IMG/VR virus record: IMGVR_UViG_3300042691_010994
Coordinates: 1 to 48,696 of that record
Length of the DNA: 48,696 bases
From: a virus
Strand: one strand, 5' to 3'
Shown: positions 52 through 37,922 of the stretch, piece after piece
Layout of the letters: each line of letters opens with the position of its first letter
How positions within the stretch are numbered: the stretch's first letter is position 1
The notes under the pieces: generated by a model
Seen by the model: the letters and a program-made list of their open reading frames with translations, nothing else
Databases searched by the model: none
Told to the model about the DNA's origin: nothing
Made by a program: the position numbers and the translations under genes

Positions 52-3000
52 TTATGTTTTACCGCCCGCCACCCTCTCCTCCACGAGGCGGGACTGGCGA
101 ATAAAGGCATTGGCTCTGTCTTGCTTGGCCTTGTCCAGCATGTCCAGACGTATGCGCTTTTCTTCCGCTGTCAGGTCGTTGCGCTCTTGGGTGCGGCGGA
201 TGTCTGCGTTGATGCGGCCGACCACCTGTCGATACTGGCCTGCCATCGGGGCCATAGCCAGCTCAGCGCGGTGCGCGTCGCGGTATTCAATCGCTTCTTC
301 ACGGCGACCTTCGCTGATCATCTTGTTGAGCGTGGTGCGTGCCTCCATCGCTTCCTGAGCTTCGCGGTACACCACATCCGCATCAGCGCCGCCGTACTTT
401 TTCTGGAAGGCTGTGCCGATCAACGGCAGGTCTGACGCACGACCGGCTGGCTTTTCACCCTTGTCTCCGCGCTCGAACAAACCGTTGGCGGTAGCGACAG
501 CGGCCAGAGGCAGCACGCCGAAGTACCCACGCACAATATGCTCGATCTGGATGGGCGACAAGATAGGTACAGCCTTGCTCATCTGCTTGGCCAGCTCTGT
601 GGTGGTCGCAAGGTAGCGCTCCTCAGTGCTGAGGCCCTGCAAACGACGGGACTCGACCTCGCCTCCAGTCAGGAAGTTCTTGTTGGTCCAAACTTCTGCA
701 ATGGGTTTAGCAATCTGTGGGACGCCCATGGACGAGTAGCCGGGGATGGAGCCCAAGAACAGATCACGCAGCGCTTGCCACTGAGCTTTACCGTCGGTCT
801 CGGCACGCATGGCATCAACTGCAGCCACGGCCAGCGAGTAGAAGTAACCAGCTTCAAACGGGATTGGCATCTTCAGTGGCTCGTCCACGCCCGGGATAGG
901 CAAGAAGAAGTTGGAGTACTTGTCCCGTGGTCGAGCGTTGCGGAAGTACTCGTCGTCCTCCATGGCCATGGCGTACACGAGGCCGGTGGCCATCAGCAGC
1001 ATGGCGTTGTTGTAGAACTTGCGCTTGATCTGTTGCTGCTCTTCAAACGGCATGTTGCCCCGGGCGGCTTTGACCAGCACGTTCAGACCTTGAATCTGGG
1101 CGTTGAAGAACGGGATCAAACGGGCAGCGTACTGCAGCGTTGGCGACAGCCCACGCTTGTAGAAGTTCATGGACTCCATGGTCATCATGTCGGCTTCGAC
1201 TTCTGACAGACCGTTCTCCTGCGCGTTCTTGAGCACCAACGCCAGCGTGGCAGCATCGGCACGCATCGCGTATCGGTCGGCTGCGGCCAACACTTTGTCG
1301 AACGCGCTTTGGTCTTTGCCGCTGGCAAGCTGGAGCGCCATCTTCTTCATGTCAGACATGTCGCCTGCGAAGATGTTGGACTGGATCAAACCCTTTTCGA
1401 TCAGCTTGGCCTGCGCATCGCTGGTGCCCCGGCTCATGCGAACAAACTCAGCGCCTGCTTTGAAGATGGCCGAGAATGTGTTGGAGTTCAAACCACCCGT
1501 AAAGGCTGCGGCCATTGGCTCTCGGATCAGCTTGCGGGCGATGTACAAGGGCGTGCGGGTCACACCAGCACGCAGCCAGTCAGCCGCTACGCCGCCCAAC
1601 TTGAGGAACCCGGGAAGCGCAAGGCTTGCGCCTTCCAAGCTCTGAACGACCAGCTCTGCCGGAATGCCTTCGGCTGCGGTGCCTTTGGTGTTGACGATCA
1701 GGTAGCGCTCGCCTTTGTCATCAGGTTTGTTTGGGTCCGGCTCTTGGTAAAAACGAATTACGCGAGCGTCATCAGGACCTTTGCCGGGCTTGATCGTCAT
1801 CAAGTTAGTGGGTTTCCCCGTCACTGGATCAACAGGGCCCATGCCTTTGCCCAGCGCCTGCAAGCCGTACGCCACGCTCTTCGTGGCGTTATTGGTCAGC
1901 GCCATGTCAGTCAACAGCAGCGTGTTGCGCTGGATGGCTTCGTTCAAAGGCAGGAGCTTGGTGTCACCGCCCTTGAGTTCAGCAAGATATGGCTGGCGAC
2001 GGATGTCTCCCACGTTGAACGTGACGTTGTTGTTGAAGACCAGATCGGCTTTGCCGTTCTCGTCCACGCGGTAGAAGGGAACATAGTCGCCCTCCTTGAG
2101 CAAGTCAGCCGCCATCTTCTTGGAGATACGCCCGCTTTCCGCAAGGAACTCGATCATGCCTTTGTTGTACGCGCTGTACTTGCGGCGCACATTCTCCAGC
2201 GCAGCTTTCAAAGCAGGGTTGGCGTTGGCAGCGGCCAAAGCAGCGTCCAACTCGGCTTGCTCCAGCTTCATAGCGCCCAAGTCCAGCTTTGGCAAGCCCT
2301 TGTTGTTAGCACGAACTGCGACCAGATACGTCTGAGCAAGGTCGGTCTTCATCTGTGGATCGTCCACAGGAATGTCAGCGATGGCGTCGAACACTTCACG
2401 GGCGCTGTTCTTGTTGGAGCTGCGGTAGCCTACGAAACCCTTGTCGTCCTTGTACGCAACCAGCGGGCCGCTGTTCATGACGGTGAACATCTGCGCCATC
2501 TTCTGCTCAGCCTTGCGCACGTGGTACATGGCTTGGGTGAACAGCTTGTCGTCACCGAACTTGAGCGTCTCGCGTAAGCCCGCACGCATGTCCACGGCCT
2601 GCATCTCAGTCTGCAGCGCAAGGTTGTTGCCCAGCTTCTCTCGAAGCGGCTTAGGTTGTGCAATGATTTTCTTCGACAGCGCTTCCAGTGCGTCGGCTGG
2701 TGCGCCGCGAGAGAACAACAGGCCAGACGCAGGACCGATCGGGTTAATGTCAGACGCAATAATCGCAGCGCCTTGGTCTTTATCTAAAAAGTCCACGTAG
2801 TTGTAACGCGACTTATCCGACACTGGTTGGTTGCGTGAAGGTCTGTCCAAAAACTTATTGCCTGCAATACCAAACGAAGCCATTAAGTCTGAAACGACTT
2901 TCTGGTTACCCATAGCAAGTTTAAATGCGTCATACACATCTTTACCCGACGGGTTGGGGTCGCCGCTAAGCTCCCGATTAAAGCGAGCTTTTTGTCCGTT

Positions 3001-6000
3001 GGTCAACGACTCAAAGACTTTACGTAAAGCATCCCCAACACGCGCAGACTGGTCAAGTATGGGCGCATCCAAGTTGATAAACGCTTCTTCTGGCTGACCA
3101 TGCAGCGTACGCAGCAGGCGACCTTTAGGTGGGTCAGGCAACAGCGTTGGCGGCAAGTCAGAGCGGTAGTCAAAATCTTTGGCGTCTAAAAGCTCGATCT
3201 GTAAAAGATTTTGTTGATGGATTTTTTTTATTGCTGGCGTTGGCGCAAACTTGATAGCCGAACGTGCGTTGTCACGCGCGATGTCTAACAAGTCCTCCAT
3301 GGCTTTGCGGAACTCGGCTTCCGTTTTGTAGTAGGGCTCGAGGTGATAGTTCTCCAACAACCCAATAGCCGTACCAACATCCGCGTTGGCTTTTTTATTC
3401 TTTTTCCACTTAGCAACCGCTTCGTCAAAATTCAACCCTTTATAGACAGGCATGTTGTAGCCTGCAGCATTCCACTTTTTTATTTCTGGCAAGTCGTACC
3501 AAGCGTTAACCACGTCTATAGTACGCCCGCTGTTCTTCTTCTCGGCAACGCGTTTGTAGTACTGCGCAATGGATTCGCGTTCAGCGCGGTATGTGCCCCA
3601 GCCAAAAGCCTGTGACCCTTCCCCAGAGCTCATGTACGTGTGGTCAAACTCGGTAAAAGTTCCAGCAGTGCCGTGCCAAGTTCCTTTTAGTTCAAGCTGC
3701 GCTGCACCATACGCCATGTTGACGAGGTCGCCTACTTTGACGCTCTCGGGCGCAATACCAAATTTTTCCAGCGCTTTTGTAAAAGCATCGACGATCATGC
3801 GCAACCAGTTCTGCACAGCCGAGCCGCTCTTAACTCCGGCAGGGGTTACACCTGCTTTAACAGCTTCTTCAACGGCGTAGGCAATCAGCTCGTCGTCTAC
3901 TTGGTTAGCAGGGGTGCCCGCTTCTCTTACACGCTTTTCTGCCGCACGCCCAATTTTTCCTTCCATCGTGTTGGCTGGCGCTTTGCTCCAGCTACGAACT
4001 GCGTTTGCCAACGCTTTGAATTGCCCAGCATTGAAGAAGTTGCGGAAGCCAATGTGCACACCAACTTCGTGCAGCAAGATTGCAAGCCCTTCGCCTTTAG
4101 CAATATTGTCGGCAAACATGTAGGCGCGTGCTGTGTTTGGGTCAACAAACGCTTTTGCATCCGAAGGAATCTGCCCCGCATACTTTGGATTTGCTTGCAG
4201 GAAATCGGCAACAGAGTTGTACACGGAAACTTTCTTAGCGTACGTATCTTCATCCCCGACAGCCCGGCGAAGTTCGTTGCGCAGCTCCGTTGTCGTCAAA
4301 CCCTGCACAGGAACGCCACGAGAAAATTCAAAGTCCTCAATAGCGTCAGACACACCCATGTCGAACCCGCTGACGCCGGTGCTACCTTCAACATTAGGCG
4401 CACGTAGGGAGGCGTACTCCATCATTTCGGTTTGCAGCTTCGTACCTTCCGCTTTGGCCAACAAGCGTTGTTTGATGCCCAACTCTTCCCGAATAGTGGC
4501 AAGACGGTCACGGGTAACCACCGGTATTCTCAACGGGTCTTTTGCCAAGTCAACAGACGCTTGCAACGCGTCGCGCTCGTTCTCCAGCGTTGCTATTTGA
4601 TTACGGTACATCGACACGTTGGAATCCACTGCTGCCAAAATAGCTGCGCGTGTCTTCAAGTCCTGATCTGCAAAATCGTCGGCCAAATCGGTGGGTGTTT
4701 TTGCTGCCAACAAACGCTCAGCAAAAGCATTGGCGTCAGCAACAGCCTGCTCCGCTGTGGGCTGCGCAACAGTACGCTTCTCGACGATCGGCTGCTTGGT
4801 TACACCAGCATCGGCCTTGGTCTCGGCAGTACCTGCGCGTAACTTGCCCGGAGCAGCGGACTGCACACGGGTAGCCTGCGACACAGCGCCCACGGTTTTG
4901 GGAGCCAAACGATCGACTTCGGCTTGCTGCTTGTTGACCTTCTCTTGCAAGTCACGAATTTTCTCCGCACGCTCTTCTTTCTTGGCTTTACCGCGTGGCT
5001 CCTTTGCCGCCTGCATGGCAGCAAGCTGACCTTCCATAGCGCTCAGGCGGTCCTTTGCCGTACCGTACGCTTGTACGCGTTCCAGTTCGGCATCCATCTG
5101 CTCTTGTTGTTCACGCGACACACGCTTGCCTTTGACGGTAGTCTGGCCAGTCTTCTTGTCTGTGCGGAGGTCTTTTGTGGCTGCGCCTGTGGTGACATCA
5201 ATACGCTTGATGCCCAGTCGGTTTGAGCGCACGCCCGTCAGGACTTGCAGTTCACGCTTGTACCGCGCCAGTGTTTTAGCCCGATCTTTTTTGGTCTCTT
5301 CTGGAATAGGCTTGCCCGTCTTTGGGCTGACTGTTTGTTTCTCCAGCTCCTCTTGGTTCTTGATGTTCGTAGTCAGTTTGTCAATTCGCTTGTCGAGGTC
5401 TTGTGTGACTTCGGGGTCGCCAGACAGCAGCACACGGGCGCGGTTCTCTTGCACCAGCTTACGTGCTTTGGCTTTTTCGTAGTTGCCCAACGATTTTTGC
5501 AGTGCCGCAACGCGCTCGTTGCCATCCGCAACTTTTTTGTTCAGCGCGGCAATGCGGTCTGGCGTTTTCTCATCGACCAACTGTTCTTCGGCTACAGCGA
5601 CCTGAATCTGCATCTCCTCGATGCCTGCTTCAATTTCTTTGATGCTGGCGTCAATCCGGTCAGAGTCTTTGTCCGACACACGCAGCAGCTCCAGCATCTG
5701 CTGGCGCTGACTGAAGTCAATTCGTTCGCCGGGTAGAGCCGCAAGTGCAGCCGTGCTTGCCTGAAACTCTTCCAGTTTTTTCTTGTCGGCCGCAGTTTGC
5801 GCATCGCGCTCGGCTTTGGACAGCGGCTCAATCTTAATGGCCGCAAGCGCCGTGGCGAATGTGTCTTCTTGTTTGGGCTGCTTGGGCTGCAGGGCTTGGC
5901 CAGCTTGGGCCAATTGTTTTTCGGCAGCAGCAATGTCGCGCTCTACGGCAGCAATCTGTGCGTCTGTGCTTGCCATTTCAGTGGCCACAGAACCTTTCAG

Positions 6001-9000
6001 CTCAAGGGCAGCGGCCAGCTCTTGTTGTGCTTGCTCGAGTTCTTTCTTGTTCTTGCGACTGCGCTTTTGTGCGGCTGATGCGTATTCCAACGCCATGCCT
6101 GCGTCAAACAAAGCCTGTGCGTCTTGGTCCAGTGTTTTTTCTTCGGCCAGCAACTGCAACTGAAGGTTCAGATCAGCGTTCAAAAACGCCAGAAGTGTTT
6201 CATCCGCTCCTGCCTTACGACTTGCGGTGATCTGCTGTTCGATGGCGGTGATAACTTCGCGTCGTGCTTTACGCAGAGCCGAGAACGTGCGCTTGCTTAC
6301 GGGCTGCTCAATCGCCGTTGCATATGCTGTCTTGGCTTCGGCTGTCTTTTGAGCAGCCTCAACAGCGGCTGTGTCCACGCTTTGAAACGCGGCAAGGTTG
6401 TCGGCAATTTTTTGACCGATGTCTTCAACGGTTTGTGCAGTGAAGTCAAACTGCTGACGCGCTTGCATGTAGTCAGCTTGCAGGTCTGCCAACTCCGCAT
6501 CAAGGCGCTCGTAAATTTTCTTCAGGTTGGCTTCAGCGGTAGCAAGCAAGTCCTTGGCGATGTTGGCGTCAGCGCCGCGCTTAGTCTGCAGGTCTTTTTT
6601 GCGTTCTTCAAACGCCGCCAACTGCTTGGAGATGTTCTCGACTTTTTTGCGAAACAGTTGAATGCGGGCGTGTGTGCGGCTGGCTGTGTCTTTGCCGATG
6701 CCCATGGCTTGGCGCATGATCTTGAGCGCATCACTGGCCAAGTATTTCTGGAACTCAGAAGCAGTGGCAAACGCCGTTGATTTCTTGGCGGGGGCATATC
6801 GCTCGGCGGGGGAGCCTTGCAGGGGACCTACATCTTCTGGAGAGACGAACTGCGCCTTGCCCTTGCCGACACGCGTCTCGGACTGTGGGGCCACGGCTTT
6901 TGGCATGAACCGCCCGGGCAGCTCTTGCTGCCCACTCTCTTGCAGCTTGCCTTCCTCCAGCCGCGCCAGCTCGTTTTGCAAGTCGCGGGTCATCTCGGGG
7001 CTGGAACGGCCCGTCGTGGTCAAGCGGTTAAGCCACTCGCCTGCCATATTCAAGCGATCTGGGTTGGCAGCAAACACGTTAAAGTTGTTTGCAATCTGGT
7101 TGAGCACCGCCATGTCTTCTGGCGCATAGCGTTCGCGACGCTCTGTGCGTGTGCTCTGGTCGTTTTGTGCAAATGCCCGGTCCATCTGCTCGCGCAGCAT
7201 GTCGGCACTGGTTGTTTTGGGCGTCGCAACTTTTGTCGCGGTCTCACCGCGCTCTGTGCCGCCGCGCCACTTCTGGCTGATGGCGTCAAGCCGAGCGTTG
7301 GTGTATGTCAGAACTTCGGGGGTTGCCCCGTACCGTGCAAGGGTGCCGAGCTCGTTCCGTACATCCTGCTCAATTTCAGTCAGGGTTTCGGGACGCAGGT
7401 CTGGGCGGGCAGAACGAATCTCGTCAACTATGCTGGCAGCCACAGCTTCTTGAGAGCCTTCTTCTTTGTTGGCCACCTTTGTGAGCGCGGCTTGCCGTGC
7501 GGCTTCTGCCTCACGCTTGGCTTCCAGCGATGCTGGGAACTGGCCAAGCTGGCTTTGGATACCTGCTGTTTCTTGGCCAAGCTCCCCGATAGTGGACTCC
7601 GATGCGCGGTCTTGCAGGTCCCGAATCTGCTCTGTCAGACTGCGAATGGTCTCCCGGTACTGCGCACCACCGCGCACGTTCCGTTGCGCATACGCGATCT
7701 CGAGCTGGCGCTGCAAGTCGGCCAACTGCTGCCCCACATTACGGCGATCCGTTACGCCTGCGGCCTGCCCCACACGCTGCTCACCAAAGAGGTCCCCCTG
7801 CTGAATGACTTCGCGGGGCATGGCGGCTTGCCGTTCTGTGAACGCAATATCAGAGTCGGTGACGCCTTGGCGGCGATCGGTATCAAGCGCTTCGGATTGC
7901 TCCATGAACGCGGCCATTGGGTCGGCCGGGGCCTTGCCGATTTTCTGTTCTTTAAGCTCTGCTTGCCGAGTTGCCAGCTCTTCCTTACCCATGTCTTTGA
8001 GACGCTTGGCCACAGCGTTGCGGATAAGTGTGCTTTCACTGGACGACAAGCCGGGCAGCGGCGTACGGGTCTCGACAACCAGCCCCGCTTTGTACGGGTC
8101 TTGCAGAAGGTACTCGACAAAGTCTTGCCCTGTAGGATCGTATGTCTGCGTACGAGCCAGCTCCATACGCTCGGCGGCGTACGACATCGGGATGTTTGCT
8201 ACGCGGGCACGCTCAGCTTCTTGCGCTTTGCGGCGCTCGACAGACGGCACCAGTGGGTCAGCGAACGCGAGGCCAGACTCTTCGTAGGCGGTGTCCTCCA
8301 CGGGCGTGACGGCGCGGTCTTGCACTGTCTTTGTCCGCTCGAGCAGGTAATCCATCGGGGACAAGCCTGCCACACGCTGCTGCTCCAGCGCTTGGTCGTA
8401 AATGCCTGCTTGCTTCAGGCGGTTGACTTCAGGGGCAAGCTCGCTCCGAGCAGCCTCATTTATACGAAGCTGGTTGTTGATGACCTTGTTGAACGCTTTG
8501 TCCTCCGCCTCGGTGCTGGAGTCTTTGGAGATTTTGCGAATCTGTTGCTGCAAGCTGAGCTTCTCTTGCTCCAGCGTCTTGAGTTGGTTGGCAACTTTCA
8601 GAGCGTAATCCGGCGTCTGCTTTTCAGCGGCTTCTTTCTCAGCAGCAATACGCTCTTGCTCGGCGGCTGCGGCTTGAGCAATATTGCGCTCTTCGCGCTC
8701 GGCTTTGGCTGCTTGAGTTTTGGCACTGCTGCGCTCAAACGCACGTCCAACAGGTGCAAGTGTGCCACCAAGCACAGCGCCGCCGATGAAGCTCTCGATG
8801 TACTCCTTGCGGGCTTCGGGATCAGCGATTTCCAAGCCAGCTTGCAAGCGCTCGAGCGTTTGTTGGGCCACCTCAGTGAGACCCTCACGGCCCATGGCAG
8901 CGCCTGTTTTGGCGGTGTAGTCCATAGCCGCCTTGCCCAATGTCTGGGTAGCGATTGCTTTGGCTTGCTCAGTTGTTAGCTTGGAGCCTACGGAGCCGAA

Positions 9001-9618
9001 CAGCTTGCCCACACCGGGCAGCAACGCCATGGCAGCCGTATCAATCAAGGCTTGAGGGACGGCCGCAGCAGCGGCAGCGCCCAGACTGGTCTCTTCCAGT
9101 GACTTGCCGGTGTCCATCTGACGGGCCAAGTTGGAGCCAGTGAACTGGCCAGTAGAGACAGCGCCAGCGCCGAGCAAGCCGAGACCTGCGGCGACGGGTG
9201 CGGATACTGGAGCGGCCAAAGCCGCAAGACCTGCGGCGGCTGGAGCGACCATATATGGCAGGGAACCGCCAAGGGTCTCTTTGAACTTCTGGAAGGGGGC
9301 TTCGGTCCAGCCTTCTTCGGTGGGGGTGAAGCGTGCAGCCGCTTTAGCTTGGGCGGCTTCGTATTCTTTCTGAGCTTCGGCTTCGTCTTTGAATCCCAGC
9401 TTACCCTTGAGCAGCTCAAACTCACCGCCCAATCGGGTTGCGCTAGCAGACGCAGCGGCTTTTAAACCTGTGGTGTCTTGCTTGGGTTTTTCCGGCTCTT
9501 TGCGAACGCCAAAAGAATCCGGATACATGCTTTGCGCACGTTCGTAGGCTTGCTCGGGGGTCTCCCCCTCACGAACTTTTACAGAATTGCCGTCGGGAAG
9601 GGGGACGTATTGAGCCAT
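52..9618 (-). CDS. giant polyvalent virion/ejection protein (ART-like and LPD38-like regions)
   Basis: A 3188-residue protein, the largest in the window and last in the virion block. It is probably carried in the capsid and delivered with the DNA. Visible parts in order: a short N-terminal module (YVPLPDGNSVKVREGE) common at the start of such proteins; an Ala/Gly hydrophobic stretch near residues 115-215 that could interact with membrane; a long charged coiled-coil region (about 300-1650); HEVGVH at 1850-1855; an ADP-ribosyltransferase-like segment starting WHGT (His1982) followed by GEGSQAFGWGTY, the signature of the 'ART in polyvalent proteins' family; and a C-terminal LPD38-like region from about 2675 to 2900 (TRTPLYIARKLIREP, then RLIPFFNAQIQGLN). 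No strong Shine-Dalgarno precedes the ATG. Enzyme activity is inferred from motifs only; the virion role rests on position and on family precedent. Confidence 0.8.
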   Translation of the reverse strand: MAQYVPLPDGNSVKVREGETPEQAYERAQSMYPDSFGVRKEPEKPKQDTTGLKAAASASATRLGGEFELLKGKLGFKDEAEAQKEYEAAQAKAAARFTPTEEGWTEAPFQKFKETLGGSLPYMVAPAAAGLAALAAPVSAPVAAGLGLLGAGAVSTGQFTGSNLARQMDTGKSLEETSLGAAAAAAVPQALIDTAAMALLPGVGKLFGSVGSKLTTEQAKAIATQTLGKAAMDYTAKTGAAMGREGLTEVAQQTLERLQAGLEIADPEARKEYIESFIGGAVLGGTLAPVGRAFERSSAKTQAAKAEREERNIAQAAAAEQERIAAEKEAAEKQTPDYALKVANQLKTLEQEKLSLQQQIRKISKDSSTEAEDKAFNKVINNQLRINEAARSELAPEVNRLKQAGIYDQALEQQRVAGLSPMDYLLERTKTVQDRAVTPVEDTAYEESGLAFADPLVPSVERRKAQEAERARVANIPMSYAAERMELARTQTYDPTGQDFVEYLLQDPYKAGLVVETRTPLPGLSSSESTLIRNAVAKRLKDMGKEELATRQAELKEQKIGKAPADPMAAFMEQSEALDTDRRQGVTDSDIAFTERQAAMPREVIQQGDLFGEQRVGQAAGVTDRRNVGQQLADLQRQLEIAYAQRNVRGGAQYRETIRSLTEQIRDLQDRASESTIGELGQETAGIQSQLGQFPASLEAKREAEAARQAALTKVANKEEGSQEAVAASIVDEIRSARPDLRPETLTEIEQDVRNELGTLARYGATPEVLTYTNARLDAISQKWRGGTERGETATKVATPKTTSADMLREQMDRAFAQNDQSTRTERRERYAPEDMAVLNQIANNFNVFAANPDRLNMAGEWLNRLTTTGRSSPEMTRDLQNELARLEEGKLQESGQQELPGRFMPKAVAPQSETRVGKGKAQFVSPEDVGPLQGSPAERYAPAKKSTAFATASEFQKYLASDALKIMRQAMGIGKDTASRTHARIQLFRKKVENISKQLAAFEERKKDLQTKRGADANIAKDLLATAEANLKKIYERLDAELADLQADYMQARQQFDFTAQTVEDIGQKIADNLAAFQSVDTAAVEAAQKTAEAKTAYATAIEQPVSKRTFSALRKARREVITAIEQQITASRKAGADETLLAFLNADLNLQLQLLAEEKTLDQDAQALFDAGMALEYASAAQKRSRKNKKELEQAQQELAAALELKGSVATEMASTDAQIAAVERDIAAAEKQLAQAGQALQPKQPKQEDTFATALAAIKIEPLSKAERDAQTAADKKKLEEFQASTAALAALPGERIDFSQRQQMLELLRVSDKDSDRIDASIKEIEAGIEEMQIQVAVAEEQLVDEKTPDRIAALNKKVADGNERVAALQKSLGNYEKAKARKLVQENRARVLLSGDPEVTQDLDKRIDKLTTNIKNQEELEKQTVSPKTGKPIPEETKKDRAKTLARYKRELQVLTGVRSNRLGIKRIDVTTGAATKDLRTDKKTGQTTVKGKRVSREQQEQMDAELERVQAYGTAKDRLSAMEGQLAAMQAAKEPRGKAKKEERAEKIRDLQEKVNKQQAEVDRLAPKTVGAVSQATRVQSAAPGKLRAGTAETKADAGVTKQPIVEKRTVAQPTAEQAVADANAFAERLLAAKTPTDLADDFADQDLKTRAAILAAVDSNVSMYRNQIATLENERDALQASVDLAKDPLRIPVVTRDRLATIREELGIKQRLLAKAEGTKLQTEMMEYASLRAPNVEGSTGVSGFDMGVSDAIEDFEFSRGVPVQGLTTTELRNELRRAVGDEDTYAKKVSVYNSVADFLQANPKYAGQIPSDAKAFVDPNTARAYMFADNIAKGEGLAILLHEVGVHIGFRNFFNAGQFKALANAVRSWSKAPANTMEGKIGRAAEKRVREAGTPANQVDDELIAYAVEEAVKAGVTPAGVKSGSAVQNWLRMIVDAFTKALEKFGIAPESVKVGDLVNMAYGAAQLELKGTWHGTAGTFTEFDHTYMSSGEGSQAFGWGTYRAERESIAQYYKRVAEKKNSGRTIDVVNAWYDLPEIKKWNAAGYNMPVYKGLNFDEAVAKWKKNKKANADVGTAIGLLENYHLEPYYKTEAEFRKAMEDLLDIARDNARSAIKFAPTPAIKKIHQQNLLQIELLDAKDFDYRSDLPPTLLPDPPKGRLLRTLHGQPEEAFINLDAPILDQSARVGDALRKVFESLTNGQKARFNRELSGDPNPSGKDVYDAFKLAMGNQKVVSDLMASFGIAGNKFLDRPSRNQPVSDKSRYNYVDFLDKDQGAAIIASDINPIGPASGLLFSRGAPADALEALSKKIIAQPKPLREKLGNNLALQTEMQAVDMRAGLRETLKFGDDKLFTQAMYHVRKAEQKMAQMFTVMNSGPLVAYKDDKGFVGYRSSNKNSAREVFDAIADIPVDDPQMKTDLAQTYLVAVRANNKGLPKLDLGAMKLEQAELDAALAAANANPALKAALENVRRKYSAYNKGMIEFLAESGRISKKMAADLLKEGDYVPFYRVDENGKADLVFNNNVTFNVGDIRRQPYLAELKGGDTKLLPLNEAIQRNTLLLTDMALTNNATKSVAYGLQALGKGMGPVDPVTGKPTNLMTIKPGKGPDDARVIRFYQEPDPNKPDDKGERYLIVNTKGTAAEGIPAELVVQSLEGASLALPGFLKLGGVAADWLRAGVTRTPLYIARKLIREPMAAAFTGGLNSNTFSAIFKAGAEFVRMSRGTSDAQAKLIEKGLIQSNIFAGDMSDMKKMALQLASGKDQSAFDKVLAAADRYAMRADAATLALVLKNAQENGLSEVEADMMTMESMNFYKRGLSPTLQYAARLIPFFNAQIQGLNVLVKAARGNMPFEEQQQIKRKFYNNAMLLMATGLVYAMAMEDDEYFRNARPRDKYSNFFLPIPGVDEPLKMPIPFEAGYFYSLAVAAVDAMRAETDGKAQWQALRDLFLGSIPGYSSMGVPQIAKPIAEVWTNKNFLTGGEVESRRLQGLSTEERYLATTTELAKQMSKAVPILSPIQIEHIVRGYFGVLPLAAVATANGLFERGDKGEKPAGRASDLPLIGTAFQKKYGGADADVVYREAQEAMEARTTLNKMISEGRREEAIEYRDAHRAELAMAPMAGQYRQVVGRINADIRRTQERNDLTAEEKRIRLDMLDKAKQDRANAFIRQSRLVEERVAGGKT

Positions 9619-11525: not shown

Positions 11526-12584
11526 TTACGCCATCCGAGAAAGAGCCAAGTCGGCCAGACCTGCTGGTCGAGAGTTTACAGCGCCGCCTTCTGCGTAGCT
11601 GCTCACCATGCCACCTTCTTTGCGGCCACCCATCAAGTACGCGCCACCCAAAGACGTAGCTGCACCGAGGAGTTGGTTAGTCGTAGAAGGACCGGGCTGG
11701 TAAATTGTTGAAGACTGCTGTGTCAGAGGCAAACCACGCAGCATGTCGGACATGAAGCCCAACTGCTTGTACGGGTAGTTCTGTGCGTTCAGGTAGTCCT
11801 GATACTGATTGTTCAAGATGTTCTGAACTTGCTGTTGCTGCTGTGCACCGAACTGGTTTTGCAACTGCGTTGCGCCCATGTTCTGGGTGTACTGCGTATT
11901 GCCCAAGGTTCCCAGTGTGTTAGCGCCGGTAAGCGCTGTCTGCAAGCCCTGAATACCCAGACCCGCACCGAACTGGCCTTGCTGGGCGTTGAGGTTAGCC
12001 GCTGCTTGGTTGGCACCTTGCTCGGCGTTGAACTGCTGCATGCCTTGCTGGAACGCGTTCTGTGAACCCGTGGCTTGGATGCCAGCCAGTGTGCGCTGCA
12101 AATCCGCATTGCCTTGAGAACGCATGATGGCGTCGCGCCCCCCACCGAACGCGCCCGAACGGGCGGCTTGGGCTTGCTGTGTCTGGGCTGCAATGTCAGC
12201 TTGCCGCTTGGCCTGCTGTGACTGCACGTCCACCACATTCTGCATGTACGGAGACATGTACTGCTGCGCTTGCCCGGGGGAGGTAAACGATTTTGCTTGG
12301 TATGGGTTGTACGTGAAGCTGGTGTTGAGAGCGCCAAGCCCCGCCATACCGGCCAAAGCCGTTGCGTCTTTCAACTGCGGAGCAGTCTGCATCAAAGCTG
12401 CGTTCTCGTACGACTGCTGCTGCAATGGGGAGAACTGCGCTTGGCGGTCGCCCATGTACTGCATGTACGGGTTGTACTCAAGATCAGTCAGTGCGGCGGA
12501 CTTACCCAGCAGGTCCTCAACGTACGGCTTAGCGTAGTCGGGGATGGAGGTTTGTGACAGGGATTGCGAAACTTGGGTGGCCAT
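11526..12584 (-). CDS. Gln/Ala-rich virion protein, possible ejection protein (352 aa)
   Basis: The protein is dominated by Gln, Ala, Asn and Gly (AAQTQQAQAARSGAFGGGRD at its centre), with predicted helical heptads and almost no Lys before the C-terminus. Such low-complexity proteins sit beside DNA-transfer genes in podoviruses. The C-terminus has KEGGMV (322-327) and AEGGAV (331-336), a motif shared with several other virion proteins here. An excellent AAGGAG lies 7 nt upstream of the ATG and overlaps the TAA of the preceding gene, so translation is probably coupled. No enzymatic motif is visible. A DNA-channel or ejection role is inferred from composition and position. Confidence 0.65.
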   Translation of the reverse strand: MATQVSQSLSQTSIPDYAKPYVEDLLGKSAALTDLEYNPYMQYMGDRQAQFSPLQQQSYENAALMQTAPQLKDATALAGMAGLGALNTSFTYNPYQAKSFTSPGQAQQYMSPYMQNVVDVQSQQAKRQADIAAQTQQAQAARSGAFGGGRDAIMRSQGNADLQRTLAGIQATGSQNAFQQGMQQFNAEQGANQAAANLNAQQGQFGAGLGIQGLQTALTGANTLGTLGNTQYTQNMGATQLQNQFGAQQQQQVQNILNNQYQDYLNAQNYPYKQLGFMSDMLRGLPLTQQSSTIYQPGPSTTNQLLGAATSLGGAYLMGGRKEGGMVSSYAEGGAVNSRPAGLADLALSRMA

Positions 12585-12595
12585 GTATTGGCTCC

Positions 12596-15526
12596 TTATG
12601 CTGGAAGGTATTTGTCAGCGCGGGTGTTAGCTGCCACGCGGCTCTTGCCAGTAGTCTTGCCACGGGCTTTCTGGACACGGTCCATCATGGCGTACAGCTT
12701 GCGTGCGCCAGCTTCGGTTGAGCCGTTGCCCAACTCAGACACAATACGGGCCGGAACCACGAACTCACCATCGGCAAGGCGTGCAGGTTGCTTGTCGCCA
12801 ATCGTTGCAGGGATGCTGTCAGACACGCCATCACCGGGGCCGCGCAGCAACCGACCACCATCCGAGTAGCCGCCGAGGTTGTACTGGGAAGCTGAGCCGC
12901 CACCGGCCAAAGCGCCAAGCCCACCGAGGGCCATGCGGCGAACGATGCCGCCCCGTGCCTTGTTGTGGGACACCAGACCATCCGCAATATACGTATGCGC
13001 GTCTGTGACGGTCATCTTGACTACGGGGCCTTCACCCAATGTAGTAACGCCTGTCAGTGTCTTCGTATCGCCCCCTGCTGCACGTACTACGTCGCCAACC
13101 GCAAGATCACGCATTTGTTTCCAAACGCCATCCGCAGTCAAAAACTTGTGCGTTGTAGATACGATGATTTTCTGGTTATCAAACACCGCTTCCACTTTTG
13201 GCTGCTGGATGATCTCAACAAACTCGACAGGGAAGTCGCCATAAACGAATGTGTCTTCGTGCAGCGTGTGCAGCATATCGCCAACGCGGAGGTCTCCCGC
13301 GCGAACTTGCCCGCCACCGGCCAAAAGAACCATTACGTTGGGGTCAACGCAGCCGCCCGCAGTTCCGTCTGCACTTCCGCTTGCTCCGGGAGTACCGCTT
13401 GTATCTCCGGGACCGGGACCATCGTCACCACCCCCGTAGCCACTATTGTCAGTTTGCACATTTGCATTTGTAGCCGCTGTGCTTTTTTTCCTAGCTGCAG
13501 CCAAACGTGCCCGGGCTTCGGCAATCGAGATACCCAGTGCAGCGGCAAGCTGTGCTTCGGAGATGTTGTTCTGTGTCACAAAATCAAACAAGCCAGCGTC
13601 GTTTTTGCCGTCTTTGAACGGCGTGATGCCTTTGATGACTTCGCTCGGTGTTAGGCCCACCACACGCTCGCCCGCGCTGTTGTAAGACAGTGGGCGGTAG
13701 TTGGGGTTCTCGACATACCTTCCGTTTTGGAAGATGTACTTTTGCGTTGGACGGCCTTCGGCTGCGGGGATGCCAGTAACAACTTCGTTGTACGGGCGCA
13801 TGATCTGCTCAGCGCCAGACTTGATGGGGTTTGCCCCCTTACCCATAAGGTGCTCGTACGCTGCCAAAGAGTCGCCGGTTTGGCGGTTGAAGCGTTGCTC
13901 AAACTCTTCCATGGTCTTGGGCGCAGGGTTGACGTAACCCAAGCTGCCGCCCCGTTGCTCGTAAATGTCCCGGAGCTGGCCCATGCCCGTGAAGCCGCCT
14001 TCTGGGATGCCGGGAATGTTGGGGCGAGTTGTGATCGTGCCGTTGGGGTTGACGTACGTGTTGCCGCCACCGCCGACGCCGTCTGGCAGTTTGGTCACGG
14101 TCGTAATTGGCCCCGGAACAACAACTTTTTTCTGCTCTTTGAACAGCTCGTCCAGCGTCTTGCCGGTGGCGCGGATAACGTCCTGTTCTTTGTACCCCCA
14201 CGTATCCATAGCCCGCTCGGCTTCTGCGCGTTTTGCAGTGGGGTACTTGCTTAGCCAGTCGTTGATGTTGGACGACAAACCGGCCAAGCCACCCATCGGG
14301 GTGTCAGGAACGCCAACATCTGGGTGGAACGCAGAGTACAGGGCAGCGTTGGACAAGCCTGAAGCACGCATCGCATTCACAACATCTGCGGAGTTAAGGC
14401 CGTACGTGCTGATTGCGCTGCTAATATCGGCAGCGGTTGCGTTGGGGTTTTGGTTGAACCAATTACCCACCATGGTGTTATACGCATCGGAGCCCGCTGC
14501 AGGACCTGCCGAGGCTGCTTGGGCTACCGGGCTCAAAAACTGCTGGTAGCCCTGCGTGATTATGTCGTCGCCAATTCCGCGACTCTGCAGGAAAGCCACA
14601 GCCTCGCGCTGATTGGCTGCGGTGTCGCCCCCTGCACCACCGGCAAACTGCGAATAGGCCGCAGCGACATCTGCTGCCGAACTGCCTTTGTCTAGGCCAA
14701 GGTACAAGGGTTGATCCGACGTGCCGCCTGCGGCCAACGCCACGATCCCGCCTTGGGCCATGCCCTTGTACTCGCTGGCTGGGTAGTTTCCGGCGCTGGT
14801 GTATGTCTGTCCGTACGGATCGAACGTGTAGTTGCGGATGGTGCCCGTGTCTTGGCGTGGGGTGGCGGTTTGCACGCCTTCGTCGGCGTTGATGGCAGAG
14901 ATGGCCGCAAGGCCCGCCCCGATGTTGTTCTTTGCAAAGTTTCCAAACGCAGCGGGTGAGTCCGTAACCGCTTTAAAGCCTGTGGCCAGCTTGTCGTAAG
15001 GCGTGGCAGAAGCCAGACGCTCTCCGATAGCCCTTTGCGCAATATCATCAGCAGCAGGAGAAAGCGCGGCCTCACCAGTAAGCCCTTCAGCCGCGAGGGC
15101 TGCGTTGCCTGCTTCAGCAGACATTGCGCCTGTGCCTGCGTTTGCCAACCCACCGGCCAAACTTGCGCCGCCGTACGCGCCCAGACCGGCCATAAGGCCG
15201 CGAGACAGGCTGCCAGTGGCCAGAGCAGACAGGCCACCAACGGCAATACCAGTACCCGCCGCCGCACCAAGGCCAAACATACCGCCAACCGCAGTACCAA
15301 CGCCGGGAGCAAAGAAGTTAAGCGCTGCGCCAGCAATCATGGGCAGCATCTTCTTCAGGAAGTTGGCTTCCGGTAGGCCAGTCTCGGGGTTGATGGTCAG
15401 CGATCCGCCGCCTTTCAGAGCCATAGCTTGCAAGCTCTGGACCTCTTCCGGAGTCATGTGGACGAGCATCGAGTCGCCGCCGCGACCTTTAGTGGCCATA
15501 TGGCCAGCAAGCGCATGAAGGCTCAT
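12596..15526 (-). CDS. large virion protein with an intein-like Hint domain (976 aa)
   Basis: The first 50 residues are polar; then comes an Ala/Gly hydrophobic region (about 55-130) like those of membrane-active ejection proteins. The middle (about 260-720) is mixed and Gly/Asn/Pro-rich. Residues 726-855 form a complete Hint fold of intein type: Cys726 opens block A (CVDPNVMVLLAGGG), block B has VSTTHKF, block F has DAHTYIADGLVSHN, and Asn855 ends the domain. The next residue is Lys, not Cys/Ser/Thr. After it, residues 856-976 carry a module (DGEFVVPARIVSELGNGS, then GARKLYAMMDRVQKAR) that is frequent at the C-terminus of phage structural proteins. SD AAGAGG lies 5 nt before the ATG. The Hint domain may cleave or splice the protein during assembly; this is untested. 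Confidence 0.8.
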   Translation of the reverse strand: MSLHALAGHMATKGRGGDSMLVHMTPEEVQSLQAMALKGGGSLTINPETGLPEANFLKKMLPMIAGAALNFFAPGVGTAVGGMFGLGAAAGTGIAVGGLSALATGSLSRGLMAGLGAYGGASLAGGLANAGTGAMSAEAGNAALAAEGLTGEAALSPAADDIAQRAIGERLASATPYDKLATGFKAVTDSPAAFGNFAKNNIGAGLAAISAINADEGVQTATPRQDTGTIRNYTFDPYGQTYTSAGNYPASEYKGMAQGGIVALAAGGTSDQPLYLGLDKGSSAADVAAAYSQFAGGAGGDTAANQREAVAFLQSRGIGDDIITQGYQQFLSPVAQAASAGPAAGSDAYNTMVGNWFNQNPNATAADISSAISTYGLNSADVVNAMRASGLSNAALYSAFHPDVGVPDTPMGGLAGLSSNINDWLSKYPTAKRAEAERAMDTWGYKEQDVIRATGKTLDELFKEQKKVVVPGPITTVTKLPDGVGGGGNTYVNPNGTITTRPNIPGIPEGGFTGMGQLRDIYEQRGGSLGYVNPAPKTMEEFEQRFNRQTGDSLAAYEHLMGKGANPIKSGAEQIMRPYNEVVTGIPAAEGRPTQKYIFQNGRYVENPNYRPLSYNSAGERVVGLTPSEVIKGITPFKDGKNDAGLFDFVTQNNISEAQLAAALGISIAEARARLAAARKKSTAATNANVQTDNSGYGGGDDGPGPGDTSGTPGASGSADGTAGGCVDPNVMVLLAGGGQVRAGDLRVGDMLHTLHEDTFVYGDFPVEFVEIIQQPKVEAVFDNQKIIVSTTHKFLTADGVWKQMRDLAVGDVVRAAGGDTKTLTGVTTLGEGPVVKMTVTDAHTYIADGLVSHNKARGGIVRRMALGGLGALAGGGSASQYNLGGYSDGGRLLRGPGDGVSDSIPATIGDKQPARLADGEFVVPARIVSELGNGSTEAGARKLYAMMDRVQKARGKTTGKSRVAANTRADKYLPA
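12962..13351 (-). other. Hint (bacterial-intein-like) domain, codons Cys726-Asn855
   Basis: 130 codons inside the 976-residue virion protein. All core intein sites are present except the downstream nucleophile: N-terminal Cys, AGDLRVGD in block A, the S-x-x-H of VSTTHKF, DLAVGD, and a terminal His-Asn. Lys follows the Asn. The absence of a homing endonuclease and of a Cys/Ser/Thr at +1 fits a type-A bacterial-intein-like (BIL) domain better than a classical mobile intein. BIL domains are known to self-cleave and sometimes splice by a different route. Confidence 0.85.
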
Positions 15527-15560: not shown

Positions 15561-15827
15561 TCATGTTGCGGTCTTTATGCGAAGCACTTGGCTGGTTGAA
15601 CCCGTGGTGGTGTCCCGGAACACGTCGCCAAGGCGCAGATTTGCTTCATCCGCATCCGTTGGCAGGGTTTCCAAGTTCAGATTCAGCGTGGCTGCGCCCA
15701 CGTTACCCGGGTTGCTGAGCTGGTTGAAGTACAGACGCAAGATGTTGTTCAGTTGGTCCTGATACCGGCGCTCATACTCTTCCGGGGCCAGTGGCAGGCT
15801 TGGAGGGGATACGTTAAGTTCAGCCAT
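15561..15827 (-). CDS. small virion-associated protein of unknown function (88 aa)
   Basis: An 88-residue protein with a predicted helix holding an aromatic/Asn-rich pattern (YQDQLNNILRLYFNQLSN) and a beta-rich C-terminus. I recognise it only as a recurrent partner of the preceding hub-like gene in related phages. Its ATG overlaps the upstream TGA by one base (TGATG), so the two are translationally coupled and probably act in the same substructure. No catalytic or membrane motif is visible. The 24-nt gap after it holds the SD of the next gene. Confidence 0.6.
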   Translation of the reverse strand: MAELNVSPPSLPLAPEEYERRYQDQLNNILRLYFNQLSNPGNVGAATLNLNLETLPTDADEANLRLGDVFRDTTTGSTSQVLRIKTAT

Positions 15828-18250
15828 CAGCGTCTCCCGTCAGGGCGGATGTCAATTCGAGGTGCGCCGATCTGCCATGCCGTATTGATCTGGTTGGATT
15901 CGATCTTGAAGATCAACTGGCGACCGCGCATGCGGGTGTAAATCTGCCCGGCAAACTCTTCCGTGATGACATAGGTCGAGCCCTTGGCCACCGGTGCCCC
16001 AGCCGAGCTGGTCACCCCAGAACCCGAGTTGGACAGACCGTACAGCGTCATGGTAACGGCTGGCGCTTGCATAGTGGGCGAGTTGCTTGAGTTTTCAAAG
16101 GTCAGGTCGGGCAGCACGCGCCAGACAAAACCAAACTGATGCCCGTCTTGAATATCAAACTCAGACGACGAAATGTTGGCCGCAATAGGCAGCGTGGTGC
16201 CGGTTTCGTTGTCGTTGATGCCGCTCTCGTGATACACGATGTTGTTGGTGTATGTAGCTGCCATAGGGAAATCCCTAATACCAGAGTCAAGCCAAGCCGT
16301 ACGGCCCAAGTTGCCGTAGTACCAGATTTTCTCAAGGTAGTTATACACAACGTAGCGGTTAACCGTGTTGTTGAGCGTTACGCCATCCTCTTCATACTGC
16401 GAGCAATAGAACCACCAGACCTCATTGAAGCCCTCGTTTGTGCCTGCAAACACCTGCGCCGATTGGGCTTGGTTGAAGTCGCTGAACACGTACCGGCGCA
16501 CGTCGCAGTTGAGCGTTTGCACGCGGCCATCGTAGGCGTAGAACTTGTCCACACCCATCCAGTAAACAACGCCCGATGCCAGAGCAACCGCGTTGGGGCC
16601 TTCAATCGAAATGTTGCTGCCAAGCAACTGCGTTTGCCACACGTTAGGTGGGCCAAGGTACTGAAGCGAATAAACCGCAGAGTTTGTGAACACCACAATT
16701 TCTTGCCGGGTCTGGATGGCCGTGACGATCTCGGAGCCGTCAGACAGGCGGATGCTGCCCGCTTGGTTGGTAGCGTCTGGCGTCCAGTTGTAGGGGTCGT
16801 CTTGGTTGGACCAGCGGATCAGCATCGGGTCCTGCTCGGTGCTGCCGTAATCGTTTGCGCCGAAGGTAATGATAAATCGGAAGGTGTCTGACACCAAGAT
16901 ACGATTTTGCACTGCGGGAACATCAACGATTTTTGACACGTACGCGCCGGACAGGCTACCTGTAATGAGCACGGTCCCCGTATTTCCAACGCTGGTAACC
17001 CCCGACAAAGCAACGCCGCTGTGATCCGCCGAAGCAAAAACCCCGGTCGTACCTGAAGCAGACACCCCAGAAAGCGCAACGCCCAAAAGGTTTGTTGCCC
17101 CTACAGCGCCTTCCGCAGACACGCCGCTCAGGTACACACCCGTTTGAGCAGAAACCGCCGCAACTGTACCCGTGCCACCATTTGCGCTGACCCCCGATAA
17201 AGTCAGTAAAGGGGTAACACTTGCAACAACAGTACCGACGCCACCTAAACCGGTAACACCAAGCACGTTTGGTGGCAGAGAAGCGCCGACAAAATCCCCA
17301 TTTGCGTCCAGCAACCGGTAGCTTAGCCCGTCTGGATCAAAAACATAATAGGTCGTGTCCGGCTGCATGCTTGGTGGTAAGTTGCCCTGAAACTGCAACG
17401 CTGCGCCAGAAGTAAACAGTGTTGAACCTGTAATAACGGTTGGGGTTGTTAACGAAACCTCGACAGGACCGCCTAAAGAATTGAGCAAAACACCCCGAGA
17501 AGTAACCCCGCCTGTGGCGTTCCAGTAGTAAATCCCGCCACCGCGTGGCCCGAAGACCAAATCTTCCCCGTAGTTCTGTTGGCTCCACAGACGTAGGGCT
17601 GAAGTTGACGTGCCTCCCGTGCCCCAAGTTCCAGAACCCCACGGGCCAGCGCCCCAACCAGTAAGCGGAATCGCAAACGTAGGACCTGTGTTGATCTGGT
17701 AGGCAGCGGTAACCGTGCCGCCCCCGGGCGAGCCTGACACATCTGTAGCGTTGGCAACTGCGCCAACAGTGATGGTGTACACATTGGCGTTAACCAATGT
17801 AATTTGGTGTTCTTTGTTAAGCAGTGCGGCAGTGATGTTGCCGCCAAGGCCCGTTGCCCCGCTGAACGTAACAAAGTCGCCGTTGGAGCAGCCATGCGCC
17901 GTGTCCGCCACCGTGATGACCGCAGAGCCAAGGGTTGCCGTGAAAGGGTTGGTCAGCGTGACGGTAGTGCGAATCGGCGTGATGTCGTTGTATGCCCCGC
18001 CCTTTTCAATGTAGAACTTCAAGTTTGTGCCAACACCTACTAGGTTCAGGTTGGCAAGCGTTGTCCAGTTCCACAATGAGCGGCACACACCAAGGAATGT
18101 GTTTGGTGAAATGCGCTGCCAGCCGCCGATCTTCTCTGGCGTGCCTTGGCGAAAGCGAACCTTGTCGCCGTCGTACCACCCGCCTTCGGTGGTGTAGCGT
18201 GTGTTTTCCCGGTTAATCCCGGGTTTGAACAGTATCTTGGATAAGGGCAT
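15827..18250 (-). CDS. beta-rich tail hub / DNA-stabilisation-like protein (807 aa)
   Basis: A long beta-strand-rich protein. The N-terminus (FKPGINRENTRYTTEGGWYD, then VRFRQGTPEKIGGW) and the repeated WSNQDD, VVFTNSAVYSLQYLG and VYWMGVDKFYAYDG strands look like blades of a propeller. This recalls the P22 gp10-type packaged-DNA stabilisation or tail hub proteins, which close the head-tail channel. Residues about 340-425 hold four to five copies of a LSGVSAxGxxGxV repeat that looks inserted into the propeller. The ATG follows GAGGT at 5 nt. Its position between lysis genes and large internal proteins fits a tail or hub protein. The gp10 comparison is from overall pattern and is only moderately secure. 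Confidence 0.6.
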   Translation of the reverse strand: MPLSKILFKPGINRENTRYTTEGGWYDGDKVRFRQGTPEKIGGWQRISPNTFLGVCRSLWNWTTLANLNLVGVGTNLKFYIEKGGAYNDITPIRTTVTLTNPFTATLGSAVITVADTAHGCSNGDFVTFSGATGLGGNITAALLNKEHQITLVNANVYTITVGAVANATDVSGSPGGGTVTAAYQINTGPTFAIPLTGWGAGPWGSGTWGTGGTSTSALRLWSQQNYGEDLVFGPRGGGIYYWNATGGVTSRGVLLNSLGGPVEVSLTTPTVITGSTLFTSGAALQFQGNLPPSMQPDTTYYVFDPDGLSYRLLDANGDFVGASLPPNVLGVTGLGGVGTVVASVTPLLTLSGVSANGGTGTVAAVSAQTGVYLSGVSAEGAVGATNLLGVALSGVSASGTTGVFASADHSGVALSGVTSVGNTGTVLITGSLSGAYVSKIVDVPAVQNRILVSDTFRFIITFGANDYGSTEQDPMLIRWSNQDDPYNWTPDATNQAGSIRLSDGSEIVTAIQTRQEIVVFTNSAVYSLQYLGPPNVWQTQLLGSNISIEGPNAVALASGVVYWMGVDKFYAYDGRVQTLNCDVRRYVFSDFNQAQSAQVFAGTNEGFNEVWWFYCSQYEEDGVTLNNTVNRYVVYNYLEKIWYYGNLGRTAWLDSGIRDFPMAATYTNNIVYHESGINDNETGTTLPIAANISSSEFDIQDGHQFGFVWRVLPDLTFENSSNSPTMQAPAVTMTLYGLSNSGSGVTSSAGAPVAKGSTYVITEEFAGQIYTRMRGRQLIFKIESNQINTAWQIGAPRIDIRPDGRR

Positions 18251-34509: not shown

Positions 34510-35439
34510 TTAGGAGCCACTAGAGCCCCAGATACCGAGTGGGTCACTGTAGCCAAAGCTGTAACGCTCACGGGCTTTGTAACGCACGTTACCGGTGTCA
34601 AAATCCCCGTCCATTGACGTAGCCAAGGCGGAACGCTCGAAATGCTTCAAGCCGTTTGGCACGTCTGTAGTCAGGAACCAAGCGTTGTTGTCGGTCAAGA
34701 AGTGGTTGACGGTATAGCCGCCAGACACTGTGCCCATTTGCTTCAACGCGTTGATGTCGTTGTCAGCAGTACCAACACGCAGCTCAGTGTCAAGCAAACG
34801 CTTGGCAACGAACATCAGTGATGGAGGGATGACCAACTTGACGGGCTTGGCTGCAATCAGCAGGTTACGCTCGTCAACCCAAGCAGCGATCTGGATCGTT
34901 GCGTTTTCCAACGAGGTCTCGTTCAAGTCCACGCCGGTTGTTGGGCTGTTGTAGTTAACGCCGCCGCCCACGAGTGGGTGACCAACGCGAGTGCCGGAGC
35001 TGTTGTTACCGAACAAGGACACGCCGTCGCCGCCGAGAACGGAGCCGGAGAAACCGGTGTTCAAGACAGAAGCAGCTTTAACTTGCTTGGTGTAAGCCAT
35101 ACCGCGAGCCAGAGCCTTGGTGTAGCGGGCAGACAGACTGTCGTACAGGTTGTCTTCCACTGCTTCTTCCGTGATGGAGAAGCCCAGAGCGATGGTTTCG
35201 TGGGTGTAGCGAGCAGTGAAGGCTTCCTGCGCGTTGTCGTAAGCGATGGCGGAGCCTTCGTTCTTGACAGGAGCAGCGCCAAAACCGGCCAGCTTGGTCT
35301 CTTCTTCAAAGCTACGCTCAGATTTCTCTGTTTCGTAGATTTCTTTGTGCTCTTCGCCGTAGCGTTTGTACTCCAAACCGAACAAAGCGTTCAAGCCGGG
35401 GAGCAGTTCTTTGAGCAGTTGTGCGCGTGAAATTGCCAT
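34510..35439 (-). CDS. major capsid protein (309 aa)
   Basis: The N-terminal helix (MAISRAQLLKELLPGLNALF) leads into an E-loop-like charged segment (EEHKEIYETEKSERSFEEET) and a core with AYDNAQEAFTARYTHETIAL, DERNLLIAAKPVKLVIPPSL and HFERSALATSMDGDFDTGNV. The pattern and length match HK97-fold capsid proteins of Mu-gpT/SU10-type phages. It follows the scaffold and two small head genes in the usual order, has a strong SD (AAGGAG) and its own terminator, consistent with very high expression. Confidence 0.85.
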   Translation of the reverse strand: MAISRAQLLKELLPGLNALFGLEYKRYGEEHKEIYETEKSERSFEEETKLAGFGAAPVKNEGSAIAYDNAQEAFTARYTHETIALGFSITEEAVEDNLYDSLSARYTKALARGMAYTKQVKAASVLNTGFSGSVLGGDGVSLFGNNSSGTRVGHPLVGGGVNYNSPTTGVDLNETSLENATIQIAAWVDERNLLIAAKPVKLVIPPSLMFVAKRLLDTELRVGTADNDINALKQMGTVSGGYTVNHFLTDNNAWFLTTDVPNGLKHFERSALATSMDGDFDTGNVRYKARERYSFGYSDPLGIWGSSGS

Positions 35440-37487: not shown

Positions 37488-37922
37488 TTAAGCGCGGGTA
37501 TATCCGCGAGGGTCTTGCACAACACACTCAATTTGGTCGTCGTTCAGCACCCTGAACTCTTTACCAAACACCTTGAAACGCGTACCTGTGTAGGTGCGCA
37601 CGAGAACAAAATCACCCTCTTTGCACCAAGGACCTGAAGGGAACTTGGCAGGGTCTTTGTAAGCGTCTGGTCCGACCCGTATGACGAACAACACGGTTGT
37701 GGCATGTTCTTCGGCTCGCATGGTCGCAGCATCTCGGACAAGGTCGAGACTCGTACCGGCGATTTTTTCGTCAACCTCTGGCACGATGCACAGCAGCTTG
37801 TAGCCCGTTGGGACCGGCAGCGCCGTGGCTTTGGTTTCAGCATCCGCGTTCTCGTCTGGGGTGTCGAGGGGTTGGATGTGTTTGGGCAGGGTAATGCCCG
37901 GAGGCAGAATGATTTCACTCAT
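37488..37922 (-). CDS. GroES-like co-chaperonin (144 aa)
   Basis: Residues 37-140 show the GroES fold pattern: GYKLLCIVPEVDEKIAGTSL with a mobile-loop-like stretch, VLFVIRVGPDAYKDPAKFPS, GPWCKEGDFVLVRTYTGTRF, KVFGKEFRVLNDDQIECVV. In family terms it should form a heptameric lid on a GroEL chamber and assist folding of a bulky substrate such as the capsid protein, like T4 gp31. It is longer than E. coli GroES (97 aa), with an N-terminal tail of 36 residues. It overlaps the upstream gene by 8 nt and is made with scaffold and portal. Confidence 0.8.
   Translation of the reverse strand: MSEIILPPGITLPKHIQPLDTPDENADAETKATALPVPTGYKLLCIVPEVDEKIAGTSLDLVRDAATMRAEEHATTVLFVIRVGPDAYKDPAKFPSGPWCKEGDFVLVRTYTGTRFKVFGKEFRVLNDDQIECVVQDPRGYTRA

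Follow-up and report, generated by a model that had tools for sequence, protein, structure and literature searches.

We describe a family of Hint domains in phage virion proteins in which the terminal Asn is always followed, within the next few positions, by a lysine that, on the alignment evidence presented below, is the hallmark of a distinct phage family and not merely the mark of a missing nucleophile. It is by the residue past the terminal Asn that inteins and BILs are commonly classified, and anything other than Cys, Ser or Thr at that place is read as the lack of a nucleophile. We propose that the Hint domains of this phage-wide family may use the side-chain amine of this obligate downstream lysine as acyl acceptor to join or cap virion and tail proteins through isopeptide bonds, with neither ATP nor a separate enzyme, and we put the probability of this reading at roughly 0.45. 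Hint domains and BILs are known, as is one BIL that forms an isopeptide bond. A search that covered mainly literature outside subscription journals returned no description of the conserved lysine, of Hint processing of virion proteins or of a phage-wide Hint family with an obligate Lys past Asn in such proteins. If the lysine is the acceptor, Hint domains would have another way to finish their reaction, one spread through phage structural proteins, and would offer a compact, genetically encoded means of isopeptide ligation. Such a role would also account for the many phage tail proteins that close with a Hint domain and only a few residues after it.

The domain under study lies in a long minus-strand ORF of the window, by which we mean the whole 48,696-base virus record analysed here, and it is surrounded by structural genes that all lie on the same strand (Table 1). 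The ORF itself is assigned to no PHROG and its C-terminal module resembles tape-measure C-termini weakly (E 0.01), so that the designation of its product as a virion or ejection protein is a guess from gene position. The predicted structure of the C-terminal module (pLDDT 46.7) is too poor for use. Ubiquitin-like domains were sought in the ORF by a Pfam search at the level of sequence, and none was matched. The structural gene block closes with a 3188-residue protein (52-9618, minus strand) that bears an LPD38 polyvalent-protein domain close to the C-terminus, and a GroES-like co-chaperonin match (phrog_3188; 37488-37922, minus strand) sits between the portal and capsid genes.

Table 1. Hint-bearing ORF, its parts and neighbouring structural genes in the 48,696-base window.
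Feature	Position	Strand	Remarks
Hint-bearing ORF	12596..15526	-	976 aa; probable virion (ejection/tail) protein
N-terminal body, aa 1-692	13451..15526	-	occurs in Hint-less relatives too
Gly-rich hypervariable linker, about aa 693-725	13352..13450	-	last part resembles L081 linker
Hint domain, aa 726-855	12962..13351	-	profile, predicted fold, alignments
Cys726 (Cys1, expected thioester nucleophile)	13349..13351	-	invariant: 39/39 and 78/78 alignment rows
Block B His, aa 793 (SxxH)	13148..13150	-	invariant in family alignments
His854-Asn855 (block G)	12962..12967	-	invariant in family alignments; degenerate copies known in four-Hint protein
Lys856, +1 residue, proposed acyl acceptor	12959..12961	-	Lys at +1 to +4 across family
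C-terminal 121 residues, aa 856-976	12599..12961	-	DNA match to Hint-less L076 from aa 859
DNA ejection protein, phrog_4287	11526-12584	-	adjoins Hint ORF
Virion structural protein, phrog_3287	15827-18250	-	adjoins Hint ORF
Capsid	34510-35439	-	
Portal	38116-40599	-	
Terminase	40614-42152	-	
Tail-fibre-like genes		-	same virus record

The Hint domain runs for 130 residues from Cys726 and ends in Ser-His-Asn, after which come Lys856 and 120 further residues. A first-pass annotation made from the DNA alone had claimed just such a complete domain with Lys at +1, and translation, profile and predicted fold agree that it was exact. As a single sequence the domain scores 22.6 bits against PT-HINT (Pfam PF07591), its nearest Pfam family, which is under the cut-off of 27.7, and 16.0 bits against the intein C-terminus model TIGR01443, barely over the cut-off of 15.6. 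The doubt raised by these weak matches was removed by a family profile, A5, built from 39 rows of diverse relatives: in the comparison with BIL and intein families that the annotation had proposed as a check, A5 matched inteins in the PDB and the Clostridium BIL 2lwy at E of about 1e-11 (2.5e-11 for 2lwy). AlphaFold2, run with a 78-row alignment, predicted the Hint domain with a pLDDT of 91.5 and a pTM of 0.85, and structural alignment of this prediction gave Z scores of 15-21 to inteins, BILs and hedgehog, among them 21.2 for the Ssp DnaB mini-intein, 21.2 for BUBL1 BIL2 (the second-best match) and 19.6 for 2lwy. The dN/dS of the domain is 0.08-0.34 in five pairs, indicating purifying selection and hence a Hint frame that is genuinely coding and not open by chance; together with the invariance of the catalytic residues, these values rule out a decaying remnant.

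The predicted Hint fold, Cys1, the block B His and the C-terminal His-Asn place the domain in the Hint superfamily. In class 1 inteins the +1 residue is Cys, Ser or Thr and the insertion occupies a conserved site of a conserved protein, whereas here Lys856 (and, family-wide, a Lys at +1 to +4) follows the Asn and the insertion lies in a variable, Gly-rich linker; relatives without the Hint are also without this linker. Nor does the domain have the features of a class 3 intein, that is, no Cys1 and a Cys at position 4 of block F, since Cys1 is present and Lys occupies that position. We considered this block F Lys as a class-3-like nucleophile and rejected it: it is found in only 29 of 39 rows and was partly selected by the scan patterns. 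What the domain does share with type-A BILs is a His-Asn end without Cys, Ser or Thr at +1 and a location in a hypervariable region of a non-conserved protein. Taken as sequence, the domain is probably a complete and active BIL-like Hint.

To define the family, we scanned with Hint alignments and scored the matches by a profile cut before block G, which therefore selected neither His-Asn nor Lys, and obtained 79 clusters at 70% identity. All 78 clusters that could be read past the domain have His-Asn followed by Lys, at +1 in 34, at +2 in 42 and at +3 in two. Two further scans, with patterns drawn from the first 48 residues of the Hint only, likewise returned no new member with Cys1 and a readable end that was without Lys, which was at +4 once. 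In all, every one of the 166 distinct family domains that retain Cys1 (173 distinct domains in total) carries Lys at +1 to +4, with 77 at +1, 85 at +2, three at +3 and one at +4; the background frequency of Lys at +4 to +15 is 2.2%. On a maximum-likelihood tree the register of the Lys changed at least 11 times, an approximate count given that many forks are weakly supported, and the Lys was never lost. Shifts also occur inside supported clades (e.g., those of L187 and L255), which indicates that they are real. A register that shifts while the residue is kept is what would be expected if the long side chain is what counts. The annotation's argument from Lys at +1 to a type-A BIL thus stands in part: the domain is BIL-like and without Cys, Ser or Thr at +1, but a lysine that is invariant across the family is not just an absent nucleophile.

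Beyond the lysine, the family is marked by a T-x-H-E-x-T motif with W/Y-G, and by Ser-His-Asn in place of Val-His-Asn. Two candidate exceptions to the lysine rule fall outside the family. One, L447, has VHN followed by C. The other, L223 (1-888, plus strand; 37.8 bits), is a second Hint of CFAPGT type on a contig shared with a family member, ends in SHN followed by VYATLQCEI, and has neither Lys nor Cys, Ser or Thr at +1. In L202 and L219 a second Hint-like domain stands right after the Lys-type Hint and has no Lys near its end; that of L202 reads GGGGGCVALESF ... HHNVPINEQ.

The same profile also picks up inteins in phage terminase and helicase genes, and at +1 these carry Thr, Ser or Cys. 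At +1, roughly half of the bacterial PT-HINT domains show Cys, Ser or Thr; eight bear Lys there or at +2, and the others are mixed. Because of these eight, Lys after Asn must be said to occur outside phages too, yet only this phage family, among the sets examined, has it throughout. Five bacterial Hint proteins (L321, L326, L327, L330 and L343) end in HN-K and zero to four more residues, and the C-terminal Lys type is accordingly not limited to phages. A scan of bacterial genomes returned four loci only, a search for PT-HINT in 249 genomes from the L168 phylum found none and so gave no control, and plasmids, searched with a single member (the L305 Hint), gave no match.

In inteins, the N-extein is passed to a nucleophile, the conserved residue right after the Asn, and attack of Cys1 on the preceding carbonyl to form a thioester is known Hint chemistry. 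From the conserved residues, Cys726 would attack the carbonyl of Gly725 to form such a thioester, and the side-chain amine of Lys856, standing in the place of the intein Cys, Ser or Thr, would take the acyl group from Cys1 by aminolysis. Cyclisation of Asn855 would then free the Hint, leaving a Hint-free product in which an isopeptide bond links the body (aa 1-725) to Lys856 in the C-terminal module. In relatives whose Hint is C-terminal, the same reaction would trim the Hint from the tail protein so that a short lysine-linked tag remained. For the protein of the window, we regard it as close to an even chance that an active BIL-like Hint uses Lys as acyl acceptor to give an isopeptide-linked product; the reaction, the product and any timing in assembly are deduced from sequence. 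We favor lysine as the acceptor because of its presence in 166 of 166 domains, its shifting register, the Cys, Ser or Thr at the same place in genuine inteins, its loss together with Cys1 (below) and the likeness to BUBL1 BIL2. Against it, invariance alone fits an acceptor, a catalytic or a structural lysine equally well, the co-loss comes from a single lineage, the likeness to BUBL1 BIL2 does not extend to the position of the lysine, and an isopeptide-linked tag has no evident use where just 2-12 residues follow.

One phage protein (L422, 345-3860, plus strand; also L423-L428) contains four copies of the Hint, set in proline-rich linkers, and two of the copies show complementary defects. In L422 and L427, copy 1 has kept Cys1 and the Lys at +2 and lost His-Asn (SRT followed by VK), whereas copy 2 has lost Cys1 (NPFP or NQFP for CPAPW) and kept SHN, and here the Lys is gone as well (SHN followed by RR). 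Copies 3 and 4 of L422 are intact, with LK and K. The co-loss, seen in one lineage and two sequence variants, supports a tie of the lysine to the Cys1 (thioester) step and not to the Asn, as far as such sequences can tell. It is the reverse of what is expected if the Lys side chain attacks the succinimide of Asn855 and not the Cys1 thioester, which would give a cross-link at the C-terminus of the Hint itself, since the first copy has no Asn and keeps Lys and the second has Asn and lost Lys. The adjacency of two invariant residues, Asn and Lys, would suit this route, and isopeptide cross-links between Lys and Asn are known from other phage proteins, namely the HK97 capsid, but we consider it extremely improbable. 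The linked fashion in which the degenerate copies lose residues also speaks against a stable, non-processing Hint with a structural role, whose lysine would hold the exit strand in place through a salt bridge, perhaps with the conserved His-Glu of the family. The T-x-H-E-x-T motif, which is kept in the phage family and absent from other Hints, could mark such a structural site; however, a structural Hint needs neither Cys1 nor Asn, and dozens of diverged clusters keep every catalytic residue unchanged. We therefore judge this explanation very unlikely.

Comparison with relatives that lack the domain bears on how it came to be where it is. A scan of viral contigs gave 550 relatives of the ORF, 80 of which were retained; among distinct fetched ORFs with both N- and C-terminal parts, 61 are without the Hint and six have it. 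In the Hint-less relatives the C-terminal module comes almost directly after the body. The earlier description of the Hint as lying between a body and a conserved C-terminal module is borne out, as both parts occur without it, joined directly, in many relatives. The Hint-less L076 matches the C-terminal module with 85% DNA identity from aa 859, the fourth residue past Asn855. Lys856-Ala-Arg lie outside this shared part and therefore probably travel with the Hint. The closest Hint found, that of L081 (72% identity), matches the ORF in the Hint only and has a similar Gly-rich linker, the body and C-terminus of L081 being otherwise unrelated. The presence of a like linker and Hint in an otherwise non-matching protein suggests that linker, Hint and Lys may move as one cassette.

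The annotation had tied the Hint to ejection proteins, a link that does not survive the wider survey: family hosts include J-like central tail fibre proteins (phrog_5616, phrog_31), other tail proteins (phrog_376), a protein with a tape-measure-like end (phrog_3547) and large proteins of unknown function (phrog_358). The stretch after the Asn is no longer than 12 residues in 41 of the 78 clusters; L166, for instance, ends SHNIK and L162 ends SHNGK. The post-Hint segments of L107, L231 and L298 carry a motif like the start of an S74 endosialidase-type chaperone (SDxxLKxNI), and by this motif two self-processing domains may stand side by side in these proteins.

Two further explanations were considered. 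In the first, the domain acts as a type-A BIL as published: the Cys726 thioester is hydrolysed and Asn855 cyclised, N- and C-cleavage dominate with some alpha-amine ligation, the last 121 residues are released, and the Lys aids catalysis or fits the site and is no acceptor. The phage lambda tape-measure protein undergoes C-terminal processing, and the weak likeness of the C-terminal module to tape-measure C-termini points the same way. Cys1, the block B His and His-Asn, intact and without Cys, Ser or Thr at +1, form the type-A pattern (PMC4031507). However, the published mechanism needs no particular +1 residue, yet the Lys is invariant, and in about half of the family there is almost nothing to release, so we hold this course to be somewhat unlikely. 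Release of the last 121 residues, which the annotation had proposed, may still take place in this one protein; as a family-wide function it is excluded, because with fewer than 13 residues past the Asn in about half of the family, fragment release cannot be the shared purpose. In the second explanation, a hedgehog-like use, the Cys1 thioester hands the body to an amine on another virion protein or on the host surface and the cis Lys is accessory. Many Hint hosts are tail-tip proteins, and BUBL1 BIL2 is reported to conjugate ubl4 to separate substrates (PMC8616854), but a separate acceptor explains neither a Lys directly past the Hint nor the invariant Asn, and we regard such dispensing as improbable.

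With lysine as the acceptor, the nearest parallel is BIL2 of the Tetrahymena thermophila BUBL1 polyubiquitin locus (PDB 6y75, 6tmm), which is reported to end its splicing with an isopeptide bond to a lysine side chain (PMC8616854). The predicted phage Hint aligns with it at Z 21.2 over 140 residues, and both are without Cys, Ser or Thr at +1. Unlike the phage family, BUBL1 BIL2 is eukaryotic and lies between ubiquitin-like domains, and a zinc site is described there. In its solved chains +1 and +2 are occupied by M and Q, and its acceptor Lys is placed in the following ubl5 domain, not at +1 to +4, so that the parallel is one of chemistry and not of position. Class 1 mini-inteins (DnaB, DnaX, phage terminase and helicase inteins) share the fold, with Z up to 21.2, and blocks A, B, F and G; they differ in having Cys, Ser or Thr at +1 and conserved enzyme sites, where the phage family has Lys and variable linkers or C-termini. 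PT-HINT, found in bacterial proteins that include polymorphic toxins, is the nearest Pfam family, below cut-off, and a minority of its bacterial members have Lys at +1 or +2, but most have Cys, Ser or Thr or a mixture at +1 and none of the T-x-H-E-x-T motif. Type-A BILs, which sit in hypervariable regions of non-conserved proteins (PMC7765530, PMC5874633), agree with the phage domains in Cys1, the His-Asn end, the +1 position and the hypervariable location. In comparison with the nearest solved BIL, 2lwy of Clostridium thermocellum, the sole BIL compared for motifs, the phage family stands apart by its virion proteins, its invariant Lys past Asn, its T-x-H-E-x-T motif and its S-H-N for V-H-N.
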